A stretch of 64,000 bases of DNA, from positions 91,514-155,513 of the forward strand of contig NZ_LUKE01000004.1 in assembly GCF_001592735.1 (NCBI RefSeq), written 5' to 3'. Positions 15,534 through 39,385 of the stretch are shown here, piece by piece. A model generated the notes under the pieces. It was not told the DNA's origin. It saw only the letters and a program-made list of their open reading frames with translations, and did no database searches. The position numbers were made by a program, and so were the translations under genes. Origin of the DNA: Bdellovibrio bacteriovorus (GTDB lineage: Bacteria > Bdellovibrionota > Bdellovibrionia > Bdellovibrionales > Bdellovibrionaceae). Numbering within the stretch: position 1 is the first letter of the stretch; the number at the start of each line of letters is the position of its first letter.

Positions 15534-16991
15534 ATGAATTATGAGGTCTTAAAACCCTTCTGGGGATCAATTAAATTCGTTTTGGCTGCAGGGTCCCTCC
15601 TTTTAGCGCCTCTGGGGGCCTTTTCGCAAGGCACGACGGCTTCGACAATGAAGCTTTCTACACCGCCACAGTTTAAACAGGCCGCTCCGGTGGCGGAATC
15701 TACGGCCGCTATTTCTAAAGTCCATACAGAGATGCGCCTTCTTTCGGATTCATTTATCAGTCCCGATTTTGAAGCCACCCAAAAAACCAGCTATCAATTT
15801 GTTGGAGCGCAATTAAGAACAGATCCCTTTGCCGATGAAGTTTTAAAAATGGATGTTTCGGGTGCGGTGGCCTTGGGCGCTCCGCTTTTAAATTATTTGA
15901 ATATCGCAGAACTTTACACGCAATCCCGCTTTGGAGATGACTCAACACTTTATATAGGTCGCAAGCGTATTAACTGGAATGAGATGGATGCGCGTTGGGA
16001 TTTGGGCGTGTGGGAGCCGTTATTTAAGTGGAATCCACTGTCTCCAGAACGCCAAGGACTTTCCGGTCTTTTTTGGCAAGTCGATCGTCCTTATTATACA
16101 ATGACTCTTTTTGGATCTCCTTTATACATTCCGGATCAAGGACCCAGTTTTGAAATTGAAAATGGCAGTTTTGTTAAGGGGAATCCGTGGTTCCGCCGTC
16201 CGCCTGATAGCATCCGCATTTGGCAAGAAGCAACGGGGATTGATTATCAATTTAAAAAACCTGATGAGACCCAAATCGTTTTGCAAAACTCTTTCGGTAT
16301 GAAGATCTCTGTTGGGGACCCACAAAGTTTGCGTGCGCAATTAAGCTATGCCTACAAACCTGCCAACCAATTGGCGATTGGTTATGAGGGCAATCTTGAT
16401 GTCGGCCAACTTAAAGGGGTCGTGGATTTACAACCTCAAGTCTTTTATCACTCATTAATGGGAGCTGATGTTAGCTATCGTATTCGCAATTTCCGTATGG
16501 GGATGAGCGGAACCTTAGATCGTCCCAGCAAAGATGAAATTTTCGAAGAAAAATGGACTCATCCTGTTTTCACCGATGCGACTTTGTTAAGTCCCTACAT
16601 GGAGTGGAGCAATGCCCGTTGGGGCGTAAGCGTTCAGCATTTAGAAATCTTCGGTGGAGAAGTGACCGAACAAGGGGAGCTGGCTAATCCCAATCGCGCG
16701 GCACTTATGACGCGTTATCCTTATCGTCAAGCCCAACAGATTGCGTTGATGACGAATTATGCATTTAAAAAGGATCGCCGCCTTATTTCTAAGCTCAGTT
16801 TGACTCACTCTGAAAAAAATGATTTTGACTTGATCCGTTTCAGCGCGCGTTTCCGTCTGTCGGGCCTATGGTCCCTGATGGGCGAAATGCAAATGGTGAA
16901 AGCGGGCCCTTTGACGGTTGAAAATCAAAACGAAATTGCTCAATTCGTAAATAATGATCGTCTGATGGTGGGAGTCGCTTATGTCTTTTAA
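15534..16991 (+). CDS. Outer-membrane beta-barrel protein of unknown role
   Basis: The 485-residue protein has a signal peptide with a long hydrophobic segment (FVLAAGSLLLAPLGAFSQG). Many amphipathic strands follow (STLYIGRKRINW, IVLQNSFGMKIS, FRMGMSGTLDRP, GLWSLMGEMQMV), and the protein ends in MVGVAYVF, a C-terminal Phe typical of BAM substrates. The pattern recalls DUF1302-like or porin proteins, but I cannot assign a family. The ATG at 15534 follows GAGGAGG closely; an upstream in-frame GTG at 15522 overlaps that site. Its last 11 bases overlap the start of the EF-hand lipoprotein gene, so the two are co-translated. Confidence 0.7.
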   Translation: MNYEVLKPFWGSIKFVLAAGSLLLAPLGAFSQGTTASTMKLSTPPQFKQAAPVAESTAAISKVHTEMRLLSDSFISPDFEATQKTSYQFVGAQLRTDPFADEVLKMDVSGAVALGAPLLNYLNIAELYTQSRFGDDSTLYIGRKRINWNEMDARWDLGVWEPLFKWNPLSPERQGLSGLFWQVDRPYYTMTLFGSPLYIPDQGPSFEIENGSFVKGNPWFRRPPDSIRIWQEATGIDYQFKKPDETQIVLQNSFGMKISVGDPQSLRAQLSYAYKPANQLAIGYEGNLDVGQLKGVVDLQPQVFYHSLMGADVSYRIRNFRMGMSGTLDRPSKDEIFEEKWTHPVFTDATLLSPYMEWSNARWGVSVQHLEIFGGEVTEQGELANPNRAALMTRYPYRQAQQIALMTNYAFKKDRRLISKLSLTHSEKNDFDLIRFSARFRLSGLWSLMGEMQMVKAGPLTVENQNEIAQFVNNDRLMVGVAYVF

Positions 16992-19275
16992 AGCGGTGAC
17001 TTCATTAGGCCTGTCGGCAATCTTAACTCTATCTACGGTGGGTTGCAGTGACTATTTGAAGGGTGAAAAACACAAACCCGAAGTGATCGAATTTTCAGAT
17101 GCTCGCTTTAAGTGTCTGCAGGATTTGCCCACGCAAATGAAGGCATTTTCTATCGGTGAAATCAGCCAAGCCGATATCGAAGGCGGTTTTGATTGCATGA
17201 GTGAGGCCTTAAAATACTTTAACAAAAAAACCTTTGGTTCGGTTGAAGGTGGCTACACGGTTGAAGAAATCCGTCGGTTCTTTGGGAAATATTTTTTAAA
17301 ACAAAACAATGTGACGGCCGAGTTTGCGAAGGAGTTGATGAAAATCAAACGCGCGCTTGTCGGCGGAACTGTTGAGCAGCTAAAAAAAGATGAAATCGCC
17401 GGGCTTATTGAGTTTTTGTCGGTCGTAAAAAAAGAAGCGATTTTATTAACTCCCCACATAAAAATTCTTTTAAATCAAACTCATCAGAAAAAAGCTGAAT
17501 GGGAACAGATTTCCATGGCGACAGAGCAGCTGCGCCGAAGTGCCAAGAAAATATTGGAAATCACGCAGATTGCAAAATCAGATTATTCATTCGAAGACGC
17601 GAAGAATGTTTTGGCCGGATTTGCGAAATTCATTAAGGGGGAAGAAACCTTTGCCCCTTACGAGCAATATGGAGAATGGGTGCCGGTAGTTGAAGCCGTT
17701 AAAAACATTCTTTTAGGCCGTCGCGCCAACTTTACGGGCCTCAGTCAATGGATGGACGCTTTGGATTCCTTTGTCGACGTGTATGAGTTGCTGTTGAAGT
17801 ATCACTACAACTTAAGTGATTTTGAATTTAATGACGCTCAGAAATTGCGTCAAATCAGTCAGTTCTTAAATAAAGCCATGAAGGTCATCGCCGAATCTCA
17901 TCAGATGAGAATCATCGGTTATATTCCGGTACAGGACCTAGATGCTTTGATTGATCAGGTTTTGCCTAAGACCCATTTAAATATTCAACCGGCTTCTGCT
18001 AAAAAAATGTATCGTGCGGTCTTGTTAAAAATGCTCGATCCCCAGCGCAAGGCTGATACGCGTGGATTTATCGGTTTAGAGCGCAAACACCTGGCGACTT
18101 TGCAGCGGGAATACAATGTATGGCGTTTGATTCAAAGCTTCGTAGATAACGTTCCATATCCAGAAAGCACCCAAGCCTTGTCACAAGAACAACTGGTATC
18201 GGCTTATAAATCTTTTGATAAAAACTTTGTGATTGAAAAAGGTCTGACGGAAGACCCTTTTGAGCAGCAGGCTTTGAAATGGGCCTGGGAAGACTATGGC
18301 TTGTTATTACAAAGTAAGATTCCAGTTATTTATAATAGCCAGGGTCAGATGTTTATTTCTTTAAACACCGCTAAGACCGGTCAGACTTGGAAGTCCTTAT
18401 CCAAGGCCAATTTAATGCGTGGTCTGTCGCGTATTTTGATGATTGGTTATGGTGACAACGTTGATAAAACCATGAGCCAGGCAGGCATTTCCAAAGAAGG
18501 ATTAAGCTCTTGGTATGATGACTTTAAAGAGTTTTTCTTGGATATCGGCGCTTTCGATCCACGCACGGGCAACTCGGGCGGGCGCAGCTTCCAAGAGGCC
18601 AACTTTTTTACTTTCAGTGGTAATGGAAATGAGACCATGGACCAAGCTGAAACTTATGAGTTTGTCAGCACGCTGTTTGCCGCCGGACTAGCGACATCAG
18701 AAGCTTTGCAATCGGGCCTGACGAAAGTGTGCGCGATGGAAACCAAAGATCTTTTCGGAAAAGCATTCTTGAAGCAGGACTGCTTCCAAAAAGAACTGAA
18801 AAACCGTTTTGACGTTTATTTTTCGAATGTTCCCGGGATGGCGGCCTATATTAAGTCTTTAAATGACAAACAATGGGCCGAGTTTTTTAATTATTTGTTG
18901 GCAACGTCGGCGACTCCGGACCAAAAAGCAGGCTTCATCGATACGGCGAATGTTCGTACCATGACGACCATTTTGCATTACGTAGAAAACCTGATGACCA
19001 TTTATGATGCGGACCAAAACCAAACTTTCTCGTTAGACGAGGTTTACGCCGCGGCACCCAGATTTATGTCATTCCTTAAAACGGTCAAACCGGGCACTCC
19101 CGACACCTTTTTGACGGAAGGTTTTGCGTATCTGGTGTTCAAAGGTGCCATTCCGGGACCGGCGGACCTGGTGGGATTCCAATTTACGAAGAAATCTCTG
19201 CCCGAAGCTTCGCGGATGAATATTTTGCGTATTTTCGGAGCCCTCAAGGATCAATTGAACAAGCCTCAAAAGTAA
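16981..19275 (+). CDS. Large helical lipoprotein with canonical EF-hand
   Basis: The 764-residue protein has a lipobox (LSTVGC) with Cys22 and is otherwise almost entirely helical. A perfect 12-residue calcium loop lies at residues 676-687: D676, D678, N680, T682, S684, E687. It is flanked by helices (NLMTIY before, VYAAAPRFMSFL after), so this is a genuine EF-hand. The rest does not match a family I know. Its location between two barrel genes, with an 11-base overlap upstream and a 14-base gap downstream, suggests an outer-membrane complex that may respond to calcium. Calcium binding is an inference from one loop. Confidence 0.75.
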   Translation: MSFKAVTSLGLSAILTLSTVGCSDYLKGEKHKPEVIEFSDARFKCLQDLPTQMKAFSIGEISQADIEGGFDCMSEALKYFNKKTFGSVEGGYTVEEIRRFFGKYFLKQNNVTAEFAKELMKIKRALVGGTVEQLKKDEIAGLIEFLSVVKKEAILLTPHIKILLNQTHQKKAEWEQISMATEQLRRSAKKILEITQIAKSDYSFEDAKNVLAGFAKFIKGEETFAPYEQYGEWVPVVEAVKNILLGRRANFTGLSQWMDALDSFVDVYELLLKYHYNLSDFEFNDAQKLRQISQFLNKAMKVIAESHQMRIIGYIPVQDLDALIDQVLPKTHLNIQPASAKKMYRAVLLKMLDPQRKADTRGFIGLERKHLATLQREYNVWRLIQSFVDNVPYPESTQALSQEQLVSAYKSFDKNFVIEKGLTEDPFEQQALKWAWEDYGLLLQSKIPVIYNSQGQMFISLNTAKTGQTWKSLSKANLMRGLSRILMIGYGDNVDKTMSQAGISKEGLSSWYDDFKEFFLDIGAFDPRTGNSGGRSFQEANFFTFSGNGNETMDQAETYEFVSTLFAAGLATSEALQSGLTKVCAMETKDLFGKAFLKQDCFQKELKNRFDVYFSNVPGMAAYIKSLNDKQWAEFFNYLLATSATPDQKAGFIDTANVRTMTTILHYVENLMTIYDADQNQTFSLDEVYAAAPRFMSFLKTVKPGTPDTFLTEGFAYLVFKGAIPGPADLVGFQFTKKSLPEASRMNILRIFGALKDQLNKPQK

Positions 19276-31678: not shown

Positions 31679-31753
31679 AATCGCTTAAAAACTCCCTTGA
31701 GTTTCTGGCTAGAAGTGCTACTTTCCTGGCCTTTAAAGCAAGGAGCATTTGTC

Positions 31754-32725
31754 ATGGGACCTATTTCTCAGTTCATCGATCATCATTATCGTCATTTCAA
31801 CGCCGCAGCACTTAAAGACGCCGCTGTTGGTTACAAAAAACACATCGCGAACAACGGACAAATGTTAGTGACTTTGGCAGGTGCGATGTCGACGGCGGAA
31901 TTGGGACTTTCTTTGGCGGAAATGATTCGCGCGGGTAAAGTCCACGCGATTTCTTGCACAGGGGCGAACCTTGAAGAAGATGTATTTAACTTAGTGGCGC
32001 ACGATCACTACGAGCGCATCCCGAACTACCGTGATTTGACTCCGGCGGATGAACAAAAACTTTTGGAAAAGCACTTAAACCGCGTGACGGACACCTGCAT
32101 TCCAGAGCACGAAGCCATCCGTCGTATTGAAGGGGCCGTTCTTGAGTACTGGCAAGATGCTGACAAAAAAGGTGAGTCTTACTTCCCGCATGAATTCATG
32201 TACAAAATTCTTCTTTCTGGAAAATTAAAAGAACACTACCAGATCGATCCCAAAAATTCTTGGTTGTTAGCGGCGGCTGAAAAAAATCTTCCGATGGTTG
32301 TTCCGGGGTGGGAAGACTCCACTTTGGGTAATATCTTTGCTGGTTACTGCATTAAAGGGGAAATCAAAAAATCAACCACGGTTAAAGGTGGTATTGAGTA
32401 CATGAAAACGTGGGCCGAGTGGTATATGGGCGCTTCTAAAAAGAACCCGGTTGGCTTTTTCCAAATCGGTGGTGGTATCGCTGGCGATTTCCCAATCTGT
32501 GTCGTTCCAATGCTTGAACAAGACTTGGGTCATGAAGATGTTCCTTTATGGAGCTACTTTGCGCAAATTTCTGACTCTACAACTTCCTACGGTTCATACT
32601 CTGGAGCTATTCCAAATGAAAAGATCACTTGGGGTAAGCTAGCTCCAACAACGCCAAGCTACATCGTCGAATCAGACGCCACCATCTGTGCGCCATTGAT
32701 CTTCGGATACGTTCTTGGTTGGTAG
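31754..32725 (+). CDS. Deoxyhypusine synthase-like protein
   Basis: The 323-residue protein matches deoxyhypusine synthase: TLAGAMSTAELGLSLAEM, ISCTGANLEEDVFNL for NAD binding, FFQIGGGIAGDFP, SYSGAIPNEKITWGK with K295 at the place of the active-site lysine (human K329), and a C-terminal PLIFGYVLGW. Eukaryotic DHS modifies eIF5A with spermidine, but bacteria lack eIF5A. Some bacterial homologues instead make homospermidine from putrescine and spermidine, so polyamine synthesis is the more likely role. The start at 31754 follows AAGGAG. A terminator follows at 32785. Confidence 0.85.
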   Translation: MGPISQFIDHHYRHFNAAALKDAAVGYKKHIANNGQMLVTLAGAMSTAELGLSLAEMIRAGKVHAISCTGANLEEDVFNLVAHDHYERIPNYRDLTPADEQKLLEKHLNRVTDTCIPEHEAIRRIEGAVLEYWQDADKKGESYFPHEFMYKILLSGKLKEHYQIDPKNSWLLAAAEKNLPMVVPGWEDSTLGNIFAGYCIKGEIKKSTTVKGGIEYMKTWAEWYMGASKKNPVGFFQIGGGIAGDFPICVVPMLEQDLGHEDVPLWSYFAQISDSTTSYGSYSGAIPNEKITWGKLAPTTPSYIVESDATICAPLIFGYVLGW

Positions 32726-34327: not shown

Positions 34328-36412
34328 ATGTTGAGACAAGCCGTTCTCATATTATTATTTGTCATCGTTGCTGTTAAGGCAGCCTTTGCCGCCGATTCTG
34401 AAAAAGGATTGTACCTGACCTTCGAACAACGAATGGCGATCAGCTATGCACTTTTAGCGCAAGGTGAATCCAGTGAAAAAAAGGCTGAAATCGTTCAACG
34501 GGGTAAAGACTATCTTAAAGGTATGTTAAGTCAGCCCATTGAAACCGTCGCGGTTAAAAGCTTCGCAGATTTTTTAAAAGCCATGCGTGGTGAATGGCCG
34601 AATACTCACAGCTTGGCTTTAGACGTTGAGATCTTAGAAAAAGCGGGACCTCGATCTATTAAAATGTTCACCTCCCAAAGTCCTCGCGTACAAAAACAAA
34701 TTGAAGACTACATGAAGTGGCAACAAGTGCAGCTGTTAAAAATGGCGGGCTCTGAAGGAGCGGCTATTGGTGAGGCAGCGAAAAGTTTTGGCGGTCTTTT
34801 AAAGACCATGGCTACAAATCCCATGGCGCAAAAATTAGCTGAAGGCTGGCTTTTGGATCAAAGTGAAGCCGTCCTGGCGGATCGAATGAAAGAATTAGAT
34901 CGCGTCGGTGAAAAAGTGGCGGAGTCAAGTTTTGCAAAACAGCAAGATCCCACCTCGCGCATTTTTATGCAAACTCTTCTTAGTGAATACTTTGCGCGAT
35001 TAAATCCTTCCTCTAAAAAATTAATCGTGAGTTCCTTCTTGGGTGGCGATTTGTTAATGGACGATATGAAAAAATTTGAACTGATGGTTCAAAGCAGTGG
35101 TCCGGCGTTGCAAAAACTTCTGCAAGTCGTGGCTCGTCAATCAAATCTTCCGCGTGAAGTCTTGGCGGTGTTTCGTCGCCTGGAAAGCTCTGTCAGCCCA
35201 GTTCCATGGGTTCTTGTTGATGAAATCGTGAAACAAGAAAAGAAAAACTATGACTTTTCTTATTTCGAAAAGAAACCTTTGGGCGTAGGAACAATGGCCC
35301 AAACTCATCGCGCAAAAATCAAAACTCGCGGTGAGCAGTCCGTGGTGCCGCGCTTTATTAAACCAGATATCGCCCTGCGTGTGGAAGAAGATCGCAAGAT
35401 CTTAAGCGAAATAGGTCGCATCTTGGATTCAAATCCTGACTTTATCCAAATGCAGGTGCCCAAAGTCAGTCCGGTTGTGGACGACATCATTAAAACGATC
35501 GTAGCTGAACTAGATCAAAACGCGACGATCGAACGTCAAAAACAAGCCAAAGTCTATGAACGCGTAGTTCCGTTTGTTTCGCCAGAATATAAATCTGAAC
35601 TTGAATTCCATGTTCCGAAGATCCACGAACCAAAAACCAAAGACTCAAAATTGATGGTTCAGGAGATGGTTTATGGCGATAAGTTAGATGCCGTAGCTGA
35701 AACTTATCAAGACGCGATTCCGGGTCTTAAAAAAGCTATCGTGGAAGCCATGGCTCGCACATGGGCGCAAGAAGCCTTGTTTGGATCGGGTTTTTATCAC
35801 TCGGATCTGCACCAAGGTAATTTTATGATTGACGTCAAAGAGCCGCGTATCATGGTCAATATCCTTGATTTTGGTATGGGCGGAACGATCTCTAGCGACA
35901 TGCAACGGCAAGTGATGGTTTTAGGTGTCGGGACCGACATCTTGAGTGCGGAATTAATTGCGCGCGCTTTCTGGGATCTAAGTAATAAGGCCAAAAATCA
36001 AATCAGCGAAAGTGATTTTAAAAAGGCCGTTGTACAAAAGGTAAATCTGATTGCCAAAGGTAAAGAGCCTAATATCAGCATGGAGTTATGGATGGCTTGG
36101 GCCTTAAACCGCAACTTGGCTTTGCCCTATGAATTTGTCAGCTTAAACCGTGGCATGGCCATCATGAATAAGCTTTTAGAAGACTCCGGCAGTGCTTTAG
36201 ATCTAACTAAGATCACCAAGTCCATCGCAAAAGAAAACCCACGCATCGTTTATAATAACTTGGTGGTGAAAGAGCGTCTTTCTGCCGAGGACCTTGTGCG
36301 TTTAGGGTGGAGCGAGATGAAAGCCATGTTCCAAAAAGAGCCACCTCGATTGCGCACCTTGGGAATGCCAAAAATACCGGCGCTAATTAAGTGCCAAGCC
36401 GTCTTTCAATAA
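34328..36412 (+). CDS. Exported ABC1/UbiB-like kinase-fold protein
   Basis: The 694-residue protein has a convincing signal peptide (RQAVLILLFVIVAVKAAFA, likely cut before AD) ahead of an ABC1/UbiB kinase-like domain. KPLGVGTMAQTHRAK corresponds to the Ala-rich loop, FIKPDIAL to the strand after the lysine, HSDLHQGNFMI to the catalytic HxDxHxGN segment and LDFGMGG to DFG. In place of the expected nucleotide-binding lysine (usual VAVKVQ) the sequence has VVPRF, with R342. UbiB proteins normally act in the cytoplasm on coenzyme Q or lipid metabolism; an exported form with Lys to Arg is unusual. Start follows AAGGA. Confidence 0.8.
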   Translation: MLRQAVLILLFVIVAVKAAFAADSEKGLYLTFEQRMAISYALLAQGESSEKKAEIVQRGKDYLKGMLSQPIETVAVKSFADFLKAMRGEWPNTHSLALDVEILEKAGPRSIKMFTSQSPRVQKQIEDYMKWQQVQLLKMAGSEGAAIGEAAKSFGGLLKTMATNPMAQKLAEGWLLDQSEAVLADRMKELDRVGEKVAESSFAKQQDPTSRIFMQTLLSEYFARLNPSSKKLIVSSFLGGDLLMDDMKKFELMVQSSGPALQKLLQVVARQSNLPREVLAVFRRLESSVSPVPWVLVDEIVKQEKKNYDFSYFEKKPLGVGTMAQTHRAKIKTRGEQSVVPRFIKPDIALRVEEDRKILSEIGRILDSNPDFIQMQVPKVSPVVDDIIKTIVAELDQNATIERQKQAKVYERVVPFVSPEYKSELEFHVPKIHEPKTKDSKLMVQEMVYGDKLDAVAETYQDAIPGLKKAIVEAMARTWAQEALFGSGFYHSDLHQGNFMIDVKEPRIMVNILDFGMGGTISSDMQRQVMVLGVGTDILSAELIARAFWDLSNKAKNQISESDFKKAVVQKVNLIAKGKEPNISMELWMAWALNRNLALPYEFVSLNRGMAIMNKLLEDSGSALDLTKITKSIAKENPRIVYNNLVVKERLSAEDLVRLGWSEMKAMFQKEPPRLRTLGMPKIPALIKCQAVFQ

Positions 36413-36466: not shown

Positions 36467-39385
36467 ATGCGCGTTTCACCCGTGAGTTCTATTATTTACA
36501 AGTTTTTCTTAGTCTTCGGGCTTTTGCTCACGGGTTGTACTGAGCGCGCCATGCAAATTGAGTTTCTGGCGAAAAATATTCTTTCTTCCTATGAGTTCAA
36601 AGCGACCAATGCGATCAACGATACCGATATTCCGCCAGCAAACGATGTTGTTCCTTTTCAAGTTGAGTGTAGCAAGTCGGTGATCGATGCGGAAGTCTTC
36701 GATACCTCCACGCAAAGTTTTAAAAAACTCAAAGAGCTTGATACAAATGCAACATTTGATTGCGTTGAAAATCAAACAGCCAGCTTTTCATTAACGTATA
36801 GCCAAGTGGGGGCTGTTGCCAATCCGGTCGCGGCGGGTGATCAGCGGCGCAATATTCAAGTTCGCTTGACGGTCAAAAACCTCACGGGCGAGGTTAATAC
36901 CTATCAGAAAAACTTTTCGGCTTTTTTTGCGGCACCTGCCGTCACAATTCTCACGGCGAGTAATATCAATGCTTCAAGCGGCACGGGGGCGGCCGGTACA
37001 TCTTATAACGTGACCGGCACTTGTGATGTTCGTAGCGGCCATGTGACGGTGTCCATTCCTTTTGCCACCGCGCAGACGGTGAGTTGTTCAGCCAGTGGAA
37101 CTTACACTGCGGACCTAGTAACGACGGCGGCTTTGACGGACGGAACAGTGACTCTTTCGGTAAAGCACGCTTCAGGGGCTCCGTATTACGCTTATGGTTC
37201 GGCATCTAAGGACATCGTGATTGATCGCACCTTGCCTGCCTTGAGTATCACTTCGCCCACCTCAAGCGGCTATGTGACAAGTGCGGATGTTACAAACGGA
37301 AAGTACAGCGTTTCGGGAACTTGTGAAACGGGCCTGACGGTCACGGTGACATCAAACCCTACGGCTTCGGCCACCACTTCGTGTGTGAATGGTGCTTTTA
37401 CAGCCCTCATGGATGTGGTGCAAGGTTCTGTCAATTTAACTGCTTCGCAGACTGACAGTGCTGGTAACGTCGGCAGCTCGTCGCGCACTATTGGCGTTGA
37501 TACGATCGGCCCTGATGCTTTTACGATTTCAGGAATCCGGTCTTCGAATACGGACAGTTTTTCGGATCTCTCGGTTGATAACATTTTGACGGACACTTTG
37601 CCGCAAATTCATTATACGGCGGCGGCAGGGGCAGACAATGGTTATGAAATCAAGATTCGCCAAGTGGGTTCCTCGGGGGCTCTAGGGGCCGAAGTGTGTT
37701 CGCAAACGGCTTCAAATGTCGGTACTTCGGTGAATATGACAAATTGCACCTTGGCGATGTTGACCCAAGGAGCTACGTATCAGATTTATATCGTCGCCAA
37801 CGATCCTCACGGCAATAAAACATCAGCGTCAAATGATGGGTATCAGTTCACGGTCAATTACCCACTTCCGCGCCTCACTAACAACTTAACTTTTACCAAT
37901 ATTGCGGCGGGGGTCTATGCGCCTTTAGATACGGAGATAGGCATCGATCTTGTTTTTGATAGACCGGTTCGTATCACTTCCGGGACGCCCTATATCGTTC
38001 TAAACACTGTTTCCGGTGGCCGAACGATTGCCATGACTTCACTGAATGGGACTAATAAAAGAACAATCCGTTTTACCTATAAGGTCGCCGCGGGAGAGTT
38101 TGCAACACCGCTAAATTTTAAAACCTTGGCCATCACCGGTAATATCGTTGATGATAGAACGGGAATTTCAGCAAATCTGACTATTCCTTCGGGCCTGGTG
38201 GTGGCGGGGACGAATGCTTTCAATGTCGATACGGTAGCGCCGCCGTCGGTCACCAATCTTTCTTTATCCAGCGTTCGTCCATTTTATAATGAATCACCAA
38301 TTATTAATTTTACTGTTCCCGCAGACATCAACGGCAGTGCGCTGACGGTTCGTGTTGTCATCACAGGCTCAAATACCAATGCGACCTTTGGTGCCGTTTC
38401 CAGTGGAACACGGATGACGGGTCTTAACCTAGATCGGGGCTCGCTCTACACCGTGAACGTTTACACTATTGATCCCGCGGGCAACCTCAGTACCGCTGCA
38501 ACAAGCACCTTCACGTCGTTTGCTTGTCCTAATAATTTCCTTTACGTGTATGATGCGACTTATGCACCAACACCCTTTTGTATAGCACCCGTGGAAGCTC
38601 GCGGTCCCGTGACGGCTGTGCGCTTTGATTCCGGCTCTTACACGACCGCCCCGATTGAAGCGTCTTATAATCAAGCGACGCAAACAGGTTCAGGGTGTAA
38701 AAGCTTAAGCCCGGCCGCAAATTATGATTTACCAACACATGCGGAATGGAATGCGGTCGCTAATATTATTGCCAGTCGCGGCGATAACTGGATGCGCGGC
38801 ACGGTGGGCGGCTCACTGACGACAAACTATGTGTACCTAGGTGTGACTGGCGCCTCTTCGGGCAGTGGTGAGCCGATTGTGGTCGGCAGTCCTTGTTATC
38901 CGGGAACATGTGGATCGACTCCGGACCGACGCGTGCATTATTTGCCAGCGATTGGCAGTGGGGCGCTTCAGGAGCTGTGGGATTTTTCCGGCAATATGTA
39001 CGAGCTGCAAAAGGGAGCGGACACCACTCGCTATGAAACTTTAAATTACTCTGTGGGTAATCCTATCGCGGGCTTATTGCAAAACACCCATGGTGGAACA
39101 CAAAGCTGCTCCGTTTTAAGTCCGAATATTTTTCCGTATTACTGTGGATTTGGTTCGATTAACTTCAATTGTTCAGAGCTCAGCAACGTGGCGGCATGTT
39201 CGGGCACGCAGACAACCGTGGCGTATCCTTACATTTTGCGAGGCGGATCTAAAACATCTTCACGCAGTTATTCTCCGGAAGGCAATCAGCAAGTCAATAA
39301 TGCCGGGATCTTTGCCTCTTACCGAATGACGGATTCATCTTCAGTTCCTGCGTTGCAAGGCTTCCGTTGCGTTTATCATCCTTAA
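36467..39385 (+). CDS. Large lipoprotein with Ig-like repeats and FGE-like C-terminal domain
   Basis: The 972-residue protein has a lipobox (LLLTGC, Cys24). Several Ser/Thr/Gly-rich beta-sandwich repeats occupy residues about 170-690 (for example AAGTSYNVTGTCDVRSGHVT and KYSVSGTCETGLTVTVTS), of the bacterial Ig-like type. Residues about 700-972 resemble the formylglycine-generating enzyme fold: ELWDFSGNMYEL, YILRGGSK and GFRCV. It has many Cys residues and probably acts as a surface ligand or adhesin rather than a sulfatase activator. It has no Shine-Dalgarno, but a FliA-like promoter ends eight bases before its ATG. The stop overlaps that of matE by four bases. Confidence 0.75.
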   Translation: MRVSPVSSIIYKFFLVFGLLLTGCTERAMQIEFLAKNILSSYEFKATNAINDTDIPPANDVVPFQVECSKSVIDAEVFDTSTQSFKKLKELDTNATFDCVENQTASFSLTYSQVGAVANPVAAGDQRRNIQVRLTVKNLTGEVNTYQKNFSAFFAAPAVTILTASNINASSGTGAAGTSYNVTGTCDVRSGHVTVSIPFATAQTVSCSASGTYTADLVTTAALTDGTVTLSVKHASGAPYYAYGSASKDIVIDRTLPALSITSPTSSGYVTSADVTNGKYSVSGTCETGLTVTVTSNPTASATTSCVNGAFTALMDVVQGSVNLTASQTDSAGNVGSSSRTIGVDTIGPDAFTISGIRSSNTDSFSDLSVDNILTDTLPQIHYTAAAGADNGYEIKIRQVGSSGALGAEVCSQTASNVGTSVNMTNCTLAMLTQGATYQIYIVANDPHGNKTSASNDGYQFTVNYPLPRLTNNLTFTNIAAGVYAPLDTEIGIDLVFDRPVRITSGTPYIVLNTVSGGRTIAMTSLNGTNKRTIRFTYKVAAGEFATPLNFKTLAITGNIVDDRTGISANLTIPSGLVVAGTNAFNVDTVAPPSVTNLSLSSVRPFYNESPIINFTVPADINGSALTVRVVITGSNTNATFGAVSSGTRMTGLNLDRGSLYTVNVYTIDPAGNLSTAATSTFTSFACPNNFLYVYDATYAPTPFCIAPVEARGPVTAVRFDSGSYTTAPIEASYNQATQTGSGCKSLSPAANYDLPTHAEWNAVANIIASRGDNWMRGTVGGSLTTNYVYLGVTGASSGSGEPIVVGSPCYPGTCGSTPDRRVHYLPAIGSGALQELWDFSGNMYELQKGADTTRYETLNYSVGNPIAGLLQNTHGGTQSCSVLSPNIFPYYCGFGSINFNCSELSNVAACSGTQTTVAYPYILRGGSKTSSRSYSPEGNQQVNNAGIFASYRMTDSSSVPALQGFRCVYHP

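Follow-up and report, generated by a model that had tools for sequence, protein, structure and literature searches.

A UbiB-fold clade of Bdellovibrionota with a predicted export signal, arginine at the beta-3 lysine position and a C-terminal cysteine tail

A Lys-to-Arg change often abolishes kinase catalysis. The beta-3 lysine is described as the residue with the highest conservation in protein-kinase-like folds and, otherwise, as absolutely needed for catalysis (PMC4718504). In COQ8A, a member of the UbiB family, this lysine is paired with E411 of helix C, and the exchange A339G was shown to convert the preference for ADP into a preference for ATP and to allow autophosphorylation (PMC4718504). 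An arginine can occupy the beta-3 position in a nucleotide-binding protein, as observed for KSR2, in which it lies near the Asp of the DFG motif with helix C out and ATP bound (PMC4718504). For Bdellovibrio, export of effectors is expected and the routes are open (PMC10225642; PMC2797640), and a recent review regards the access of the predator to the cytoplasmic contents of its prey as a question that is still open (PMC10225642).

The open reading frame described here encodes a UbiB/ABC1-like protein of 694 aa with a predicted export signal (34328..36412, + strand, of the window, i.e., of the whole stretch of 64,000 nucleotides that was analyzed). It is part of a Bdellovibrio-like genome of 3.93 Mb in nine contigs, which contains two further ABC1 genes, encoding the canonical UbiB L001 (576 aa) and L002 (475 aa). 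It is close to established that this protein and its relatives form a conserved Bdellovibrionota clade of UbiB fold, with a signal-peptide-like start, Arg and Thr in place of Lys and Glu and a C-terminal Cys tail, called R-clade in the following. In the open-licence literature, a description was found neither for an exported bacterial UbiB nor for a C-terminal CxxVF tag. A clade that swaps the beta-3 Lys together with its Glu partner and keeps the other catalytic residues represents a natural experiment on nucleotide use in UbiB proteins and also informs on what the UbiB family does when not making quinones.

A UbiB fold with a set of changes in the active site

Residues 285-530 match the Pfam family ABC1 (PF03109) with 91.6 bits (cut-off 22.9), and both the HSDLHQGN motif of the catalytic loop (residues 491-498; 35798..35821, +) and the DFG motif (residues 514-516, with D514 and G516 invariant; 35867..35875, +) are present, as was proposed in the initial annotation with an ABC1-type domain carrying intact motifs. 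The score for TIGR01982, the UbiB equivalog of ubiquinone synthesis, is 102.8 bits with a cut-off of 487.55. Searching the PDB by sequence with the 694-aa protein alone as query resulted in no match, COQ8A/B were matched weakly with a family profile, and a plasmid search returned general AarF/UbiB matches and nothing closer. In an AlphaFold2 model built from 24 sequences (pLDDT 85, pTM 0.80), residues 245-641 are predicted to form a UbiB fold with KxGQ-type helices. This part best matches COQ8A (4PED; VIA-align Z 18.0/17.9, 3.8 A, 338 residues), followed by the mycobacterial UbiB proteins (Z 13-15) and RIO kinases (about 12). The UbiB fold is preceded by a mostly helical domain of residues 24-243 (34397..35056, +; model pLDDT 83), for which Foldseek found no match with E under 1 in the PDB, and it is followed by a C-terminus of which the last 24 residues have a pLDDT under 50.

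Comparing structure and alignment with COQ8/UbiB confirmed not only the fold but also the earlier observation of an arginine at the usual nucleotide-binding lysine position, as R342 (codon CGC; 35351..35353, +) falls into the VAIK-lysine column of every alignment. At the helix-C Glu position, equivalent to COQ8A E411, T400 is found (35525..35527, +), i.e., the pair of beta-3 Lys and helix-C Glu is absent from the 694-aa protein. Moreover, KLLQ (residues 263-266; 35114..35125, +) replaces the KxGQ motif of UbiB, the Gly being replaced in all R-clade members with K263 and Q266 invariant, and a GVGT loop (residues 319-322; 35282..35293, +) replaces the Ala-rich loop AAAS of UbiB with G321 at the position of COQ8A A339.

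These changes are characteristic of the clade. Those beyond R342, like the C-terminal tail, do not appear in the initial annotation. Position 342 is Arg in 34 of the 35 R-clade members, and Lys was found in each of the 69 UbiB proteins of canonical or intermediate type that were compared; in an alignment spanning many phyla, with about 100 distinct ABC1 proteins, Arg is restricted to the R-clade (with Gly in L032) and all others have Lys. The helix-C Glu column contains Thr in the R-clade except in the divergent members L032 and L033, and Glu in those K-type proteins in which the helix-C region is well aligned. In 27 aligned orthologues, R342, K345, T400, G319, G321, T322, K263, Q266, E394, D493, N498, D514 and R608 are invariant. 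The codon for R342 varies among the same orthologues (CGT 13, CGC 9, CGG 3, CGA 1, AGG 1), and invariance of the residue alongside synonymous variation of its codon rules out a decaying copy of the gene. Judged from these alignments, the conservation of R342 is far beyond chance. The earlier reading would have to be given up if the lysine were conserved at another position; such a lysine was looked for, and K345 is invariant. A relocated, WNK-like lysine at K345 was rejected because many canonical UbiB proteins, e.g., L061 and L077 with KVIKPGI, have Lys in both columns, i.e., they keep the catalytic lysine next to it. The sole clade member without Arg, L032:790-3126 (+), has Gly at position 342 and Lys in the Thr400 column, and it also contains an EF-hand-like insert (NQNRDGTLGFSEF).

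The loss of the helix-C Glu and the Lys-to-Arg change together would fit a KSR2-like mode of nucleotide binding, and by analogy an arginine at position 342 does not rule out ATP binding, with which it is compatible in KSR2. Since the metal-binding and catalytic-loop residues are kept, nucleotide binding is most likely retained. Alternatively, the protein might be a pseudokinase scaffold that no longer binds nucleotide, its Arg and Thr locking the fold in a closed, structural state for extracytoplasmic protein-protein contacts. This would be in line with the absence of the Lys as well as the Glu of the salt bridge and with L032, in which even the Arg is missing and HxDxHxGN is kept. However, the invariance of D493, N498, D514, the GxGT loop and R608 is more than a scaffold needs and KSR2 combines such an Arg with ATP binding, making a pure scaffold unlikely.

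Predicted export, distribution and genomic context

The protein starts with MLRQAVLILLFVIVAVKAAFA followed by AD, which is signal-peptide-like according to hydrophobicity and AxA rules (residues 1-21, with the putative site between AFA and AD; 34328..34390, +). This rule-based prediction fits the cleavable-looking signal peptide of the initial annotation, and such a start is conserved in almost all relatives with a complete N-terminus. A scripted signal-peptide rule was positive for 32 of 35 R-clade proteins compared to 8 of 69 K-type UbiB proteins, with most of these eight calls at internal starts. Most K-type proteins possess a C-terminal hydrophobic pair and typically lack a signal peptide, whereas the R-clade shows the reverse: the 694-aa protein contains no hydrophobic 19-mer beyond residue 60, and the C-terminal transmembrane hairpin of UbiB, which is kept in most K-type proteins including L001, is lost. 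Independent support for export comes from the relative L044, which has a lipobox (LLAAC), while the presence of K/R after the h-region in several R-clade members counts against it. From these sequence features, we infer that the protein is exported by Sec and cut by signal peptidase. As hydrophobicity by itself does not distinguish signal peptides from anchors, and as the N-terminal stretch is a helix in the AlphaFold model, the protein might also be an ordinary membrane-attached UbiB protein with an uncleaved N-terminal anchor and a cytoplasmic kinase domain. Such a topology is highly improbable in view of the positive n-region, short h-region and AxA-type site of most relatives, the lipobox of L044 and the fact that canonical UbiB proteins are anchored at the opposite end. 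As the R-clade protein is under selection and looks exported, it presumably does something outside the cytoplasm. This part of the earlier proposal stands, backed by the export-like start, the conserved Lys-to-Arg change and the signs of selection, whereas the example given for it, lipid handling, is not supported as stated, being drawn by analogy from Cqd1/Cqd2, the yeast UbiB proteins on the intermembrane-space side.

In a maximum-likelihood tree, all 35 R-type proteins lie on one side of one branch (SH-aLRT 99). They are confined to Bdellovibrionota, the named relatives belonging to Bdellovibrio and other Bdellovibrionota. In a search of the family, a clear orthologue was detected in 21 of the 24 genus genomes, counting that of the window, and in about ten genomes of other genera; a search of the class detected one in 42 of 144 genomes, all within the same order. 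The tree neighbors of the R-clade are three proteins from Oligoflexia (L051, L050) and Elusimicrobia (L045), which have KxxQ but keep the beta-3 Lys, and two of which demonstrably keep the helix-C Glu; the deeper placement in the ABC1 tree is unsure due to long branches. L045 and L051 have signal-peptide-like starts, suggesting that exported UbiB-like proteins may extend beyond Bdellovibrionota.

An operon partner was searched for in 16 neighborhoods, which share no constant neighbor; a MOSC gene recurs in six and an MFS-like transporter in five of these loci. The gene just downstream of the UbiB-like gene in the window (36467-39385, +) encodes a long protein that starts with a lipobox-like sequence (LLLTGC) and contains Ig-like/Fn3 domains; 4 of 16 other loci likewise have it in the vicinity of their UbiB-like gene. 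The window furthermore contains a gene of the deoxyhypusine synthase family (31697-32725, +; PF01916, 136.9 bits), here in a bacterium.

The C-terminal cysteine tail and its possible destination

The disordered C-terminal tail (residues 671-694; 36338..36409, +) ends with IKCQAVFQ, and C689 therein is the only Cys of the mature 694-aa protein. In the R-clade, the tail mostly has the form [RKS]C[EQ]x[VI]F and its Cys is usually the sole one of the mature chain. This Cys is located 5-12 positions from the end in all 34 proteins with a complete C-terminus, i.e., in 34 of 35 members overall, the remaining one being truncated at the end of its contig, and the strict tag is present in 29 of 35 R-clade members compared to 0 of 69 K-type UbiB proteins.

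The 694-aa protein belongs to a group of proteins defined by a signal peptide and C..[VIL][FL] within the last 12 residues. Scanning 2.46 Mb of this genome, or about 63% of it, revealed C..[VIL][FL] near the C-terminus in 8 of 703 signal-peptide proteins vs. 2 of 1433 others (Fisher p 0.003, a value that is flattering because the UbiB-like family and one Fic protein had already been seen when the motif was defined). When the final 15 residues of each signal-peptide protein were shuffled, 1.6 tags were obtained on average and eight were never reached in 1000 rounds, and among the signal-peptide proteins in flanks from other phyla 0 of 66 carry the tag. The eight tagged proteins are the 694-aa UbiB-like protein and seven mutually unrelated signal-peptide proteins, and no similarity beyond the tail was found among the tagged proteins of the genome.

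SelO is a kinase-fold AMPylase family. One tagged protein is SelO-like (L242:7935-9812 (-), equal to C1:1767935-1769812; tail GGSCRSVFAG), with 26 bits for PF02696 (cut-off 22.8) and a match to SelO in the PDB with E 0.004. Another is a Fic protein of 1318 aa (L173:14925-18878 (-), equal to C1:394925-398878; tail AMCRNVFAI), which is present in 1 of 66 genomes and has no relative among the 65 other genomes of the family; an ART-like stretch (YGPGVYMAE) was seen in it by eye. A further one matches Amidoligase_2 with 64.8 bits. Four of the eight have no Pfam match above the cut-off, and of these, by motif only, one is SelO-like, one amidoligase-like and one transglutaminase-like. Signal-peptide amidoligase proteins with a tail tag are encoded at L261:13508-14635 (-), at L277:1423-3882 (+), there together with an R2K ATP-grasp domain, and, amidoligase-like by motif only, at L158:12585-13793 (-). 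Two adjacent signal-peptide genes (L186:13929-15584 and 15588-17141 (-); the pair C1:653929/655588) are both tail-tagged. This pair recurs side by side only in G002 and G037, which belong to other genera, with 52-62% identity, and looks like a mobile or selectively kept unit. In the product of its first gene, SelO/kinase-like motifs were noticed by eye (NHNKDNFGI...DFGEA); a similarity of C1:653929 to the SelO-like protein C1:1767935 was supported by neither BLAST nor PDB search. At least one of the tagged proteins, C1:655588, is not readily recognizable as an ATP enzyme, which counts against a reading of the group as ATP enzymes. In other genomes, selected homologues end with CEKVFN (L277), RCEAVLAH (L280), SCKQVFKK (L282) and RCDAIF (L283), and those in L285 and L286 are without the tag. 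The SelO-like and amidoligase proteins were found in two genomes each. Most of the tagged genes are thus rare, with the exception of the UbiB-like gene, which is common in the genus as a housekeeping gene would be; this wide spread counts against a tag leading to prey.

In Gram-negative bacteria, the periplasm is generally regarded as free of ATP. ATP-needing enzymes exported by Sec would be a paradox if they were kept there, and the shared tag suggests a common onward destination, for which the prey cell is an obvious candidate in a predator. The explanation favored here, held tentatively, is that the protein is exported under a shared C-terminal tag, possibly towards the prey, where ATP exists, as an atypical nucleotide-binding enzyme of kinase fold. 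A UbiB-derived protein would be exported by Sec and then cut by signal peptidase, having lost the old membrane hairpin and gained a helical N-terminal domain. As the alignments show, its active site has been rebuilt as a set, with Arg for Lys, Thr for Glu, GxGT for the Ala-rich loop and KxxQ for KxGQ, and it most likely still binds nucleotide in a KSR2-like manner with the Arg near the DFG Asp. The CxxVF tail would act as a sorting tag by which enzymes reach the cell surface or the prey. The role of the protein at its destination might, speculatively, be that of an atypical kinase, a nucleotidyl transferase or an ATPase, with either a lipid or a protein as its target. The earlier assumption of a kinase fold in a place where ATP is scarce presupposes that the protein stays in the predator periplasm, while the tag points to another destination.

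The main rival to a tag leading to prey is a function in lipid or quinone handling in the predator's own envelope, which is possible by analogy but rather unlikely. The protein would then stay in the predator periplasm and, like Cqd1/Cqd2, move or sense quinones or phospholipids, and the Cys of the tail would anchor it or link it to a partner. Yeast UbiB proteins on the topologically equivalent face affect phospholipids as well as the distribution of CoQ (PMC8346625, PMC10214851). The broad conservation of the UbiB-like gene in the genus and the member L044 with a lipobox also fit this explanation. However, Cqd1 and Cqd2 depend on their kinase-like residues and ATP should be lacking in the periplasm, the 16 loci are without a conserved lipid or quinone gene neighbor, and the same tail is found on Fic, SelO-like and amidoligase proteins, none of which are lipid proteins.

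In its broadest form, the preferred explanation would make the CxxVF tail an undescribed sorting or secretion signal of Bdellovibrionota, which takes enzymes exported by Sec, for the most part nucleotide-dependent ones (kinase folds of UbiB-like and SelO-like type, Fic proteins and amidoligases), to the surface or into prey, with the Arg-for-Lys UbiB variant as its most conserved client, reshaped for this purpose. This generalization, drawn from sequence patterns, is doubtful. If the tail is a sorting signal, it would provide a means to search by sequence for the proteins that leave the Bdellovibrio cell.

Comparison with known systems

The MYXO-CTERM sorting tag is, like the tail described here, a bacterial C-terminal tag with an invariant Cys (PMC11980579). 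MYXO-CTERM consists of three parts, its Cys motif being followed by further segments, whereas here only 4-11 residues come after the Cys and none of these stretches is a membrane span. The mycobacterial proteins Rv3197 and MSMEG_1954 share the UbiB fold, and crystal structures with ADP or AMPPNP are reported for them; unlike COQ8A, they match the model more weakly (Z 13-15). KSR2 resembles the R-clade in having Arg for the beta-3 Lys with the catalytic Asp, the Asn and DFG kept (PMC4718504), but it belongs to the eukaryotic protein-kinase family and is a cytosolic scaffold. Yeast Cqd1/Cqd2, which face the intermembrane space, likewise have a UbiB kinase-like domain on a non-cytoplasmic membrane face (PMC8346625, PMC10214851). 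They are however integral inner-membrane proteins whose function depends on kinase-like residues, and for Cqd1 it was shown that the change E330A abolished function (PMC10214851).

Closest are the UbiB/COQ8 proteins themselves, e.g., human COQ8A (4PED) and the organism's own L001. Shared with them are the fold over residues 245-641, the KxGQ-type N-terminal helices, HxDxHxGN, DFG and the alpha-F Arg, with R608 taken as the position of COQ8A R611. In contrast to them, the protein described here has R342, T400, GVGT, KxxQ, a predicted signal peptide and an extra N-terminal domain, and at its C-terminus the membrane hairpin is absent and a Cys tag is present.
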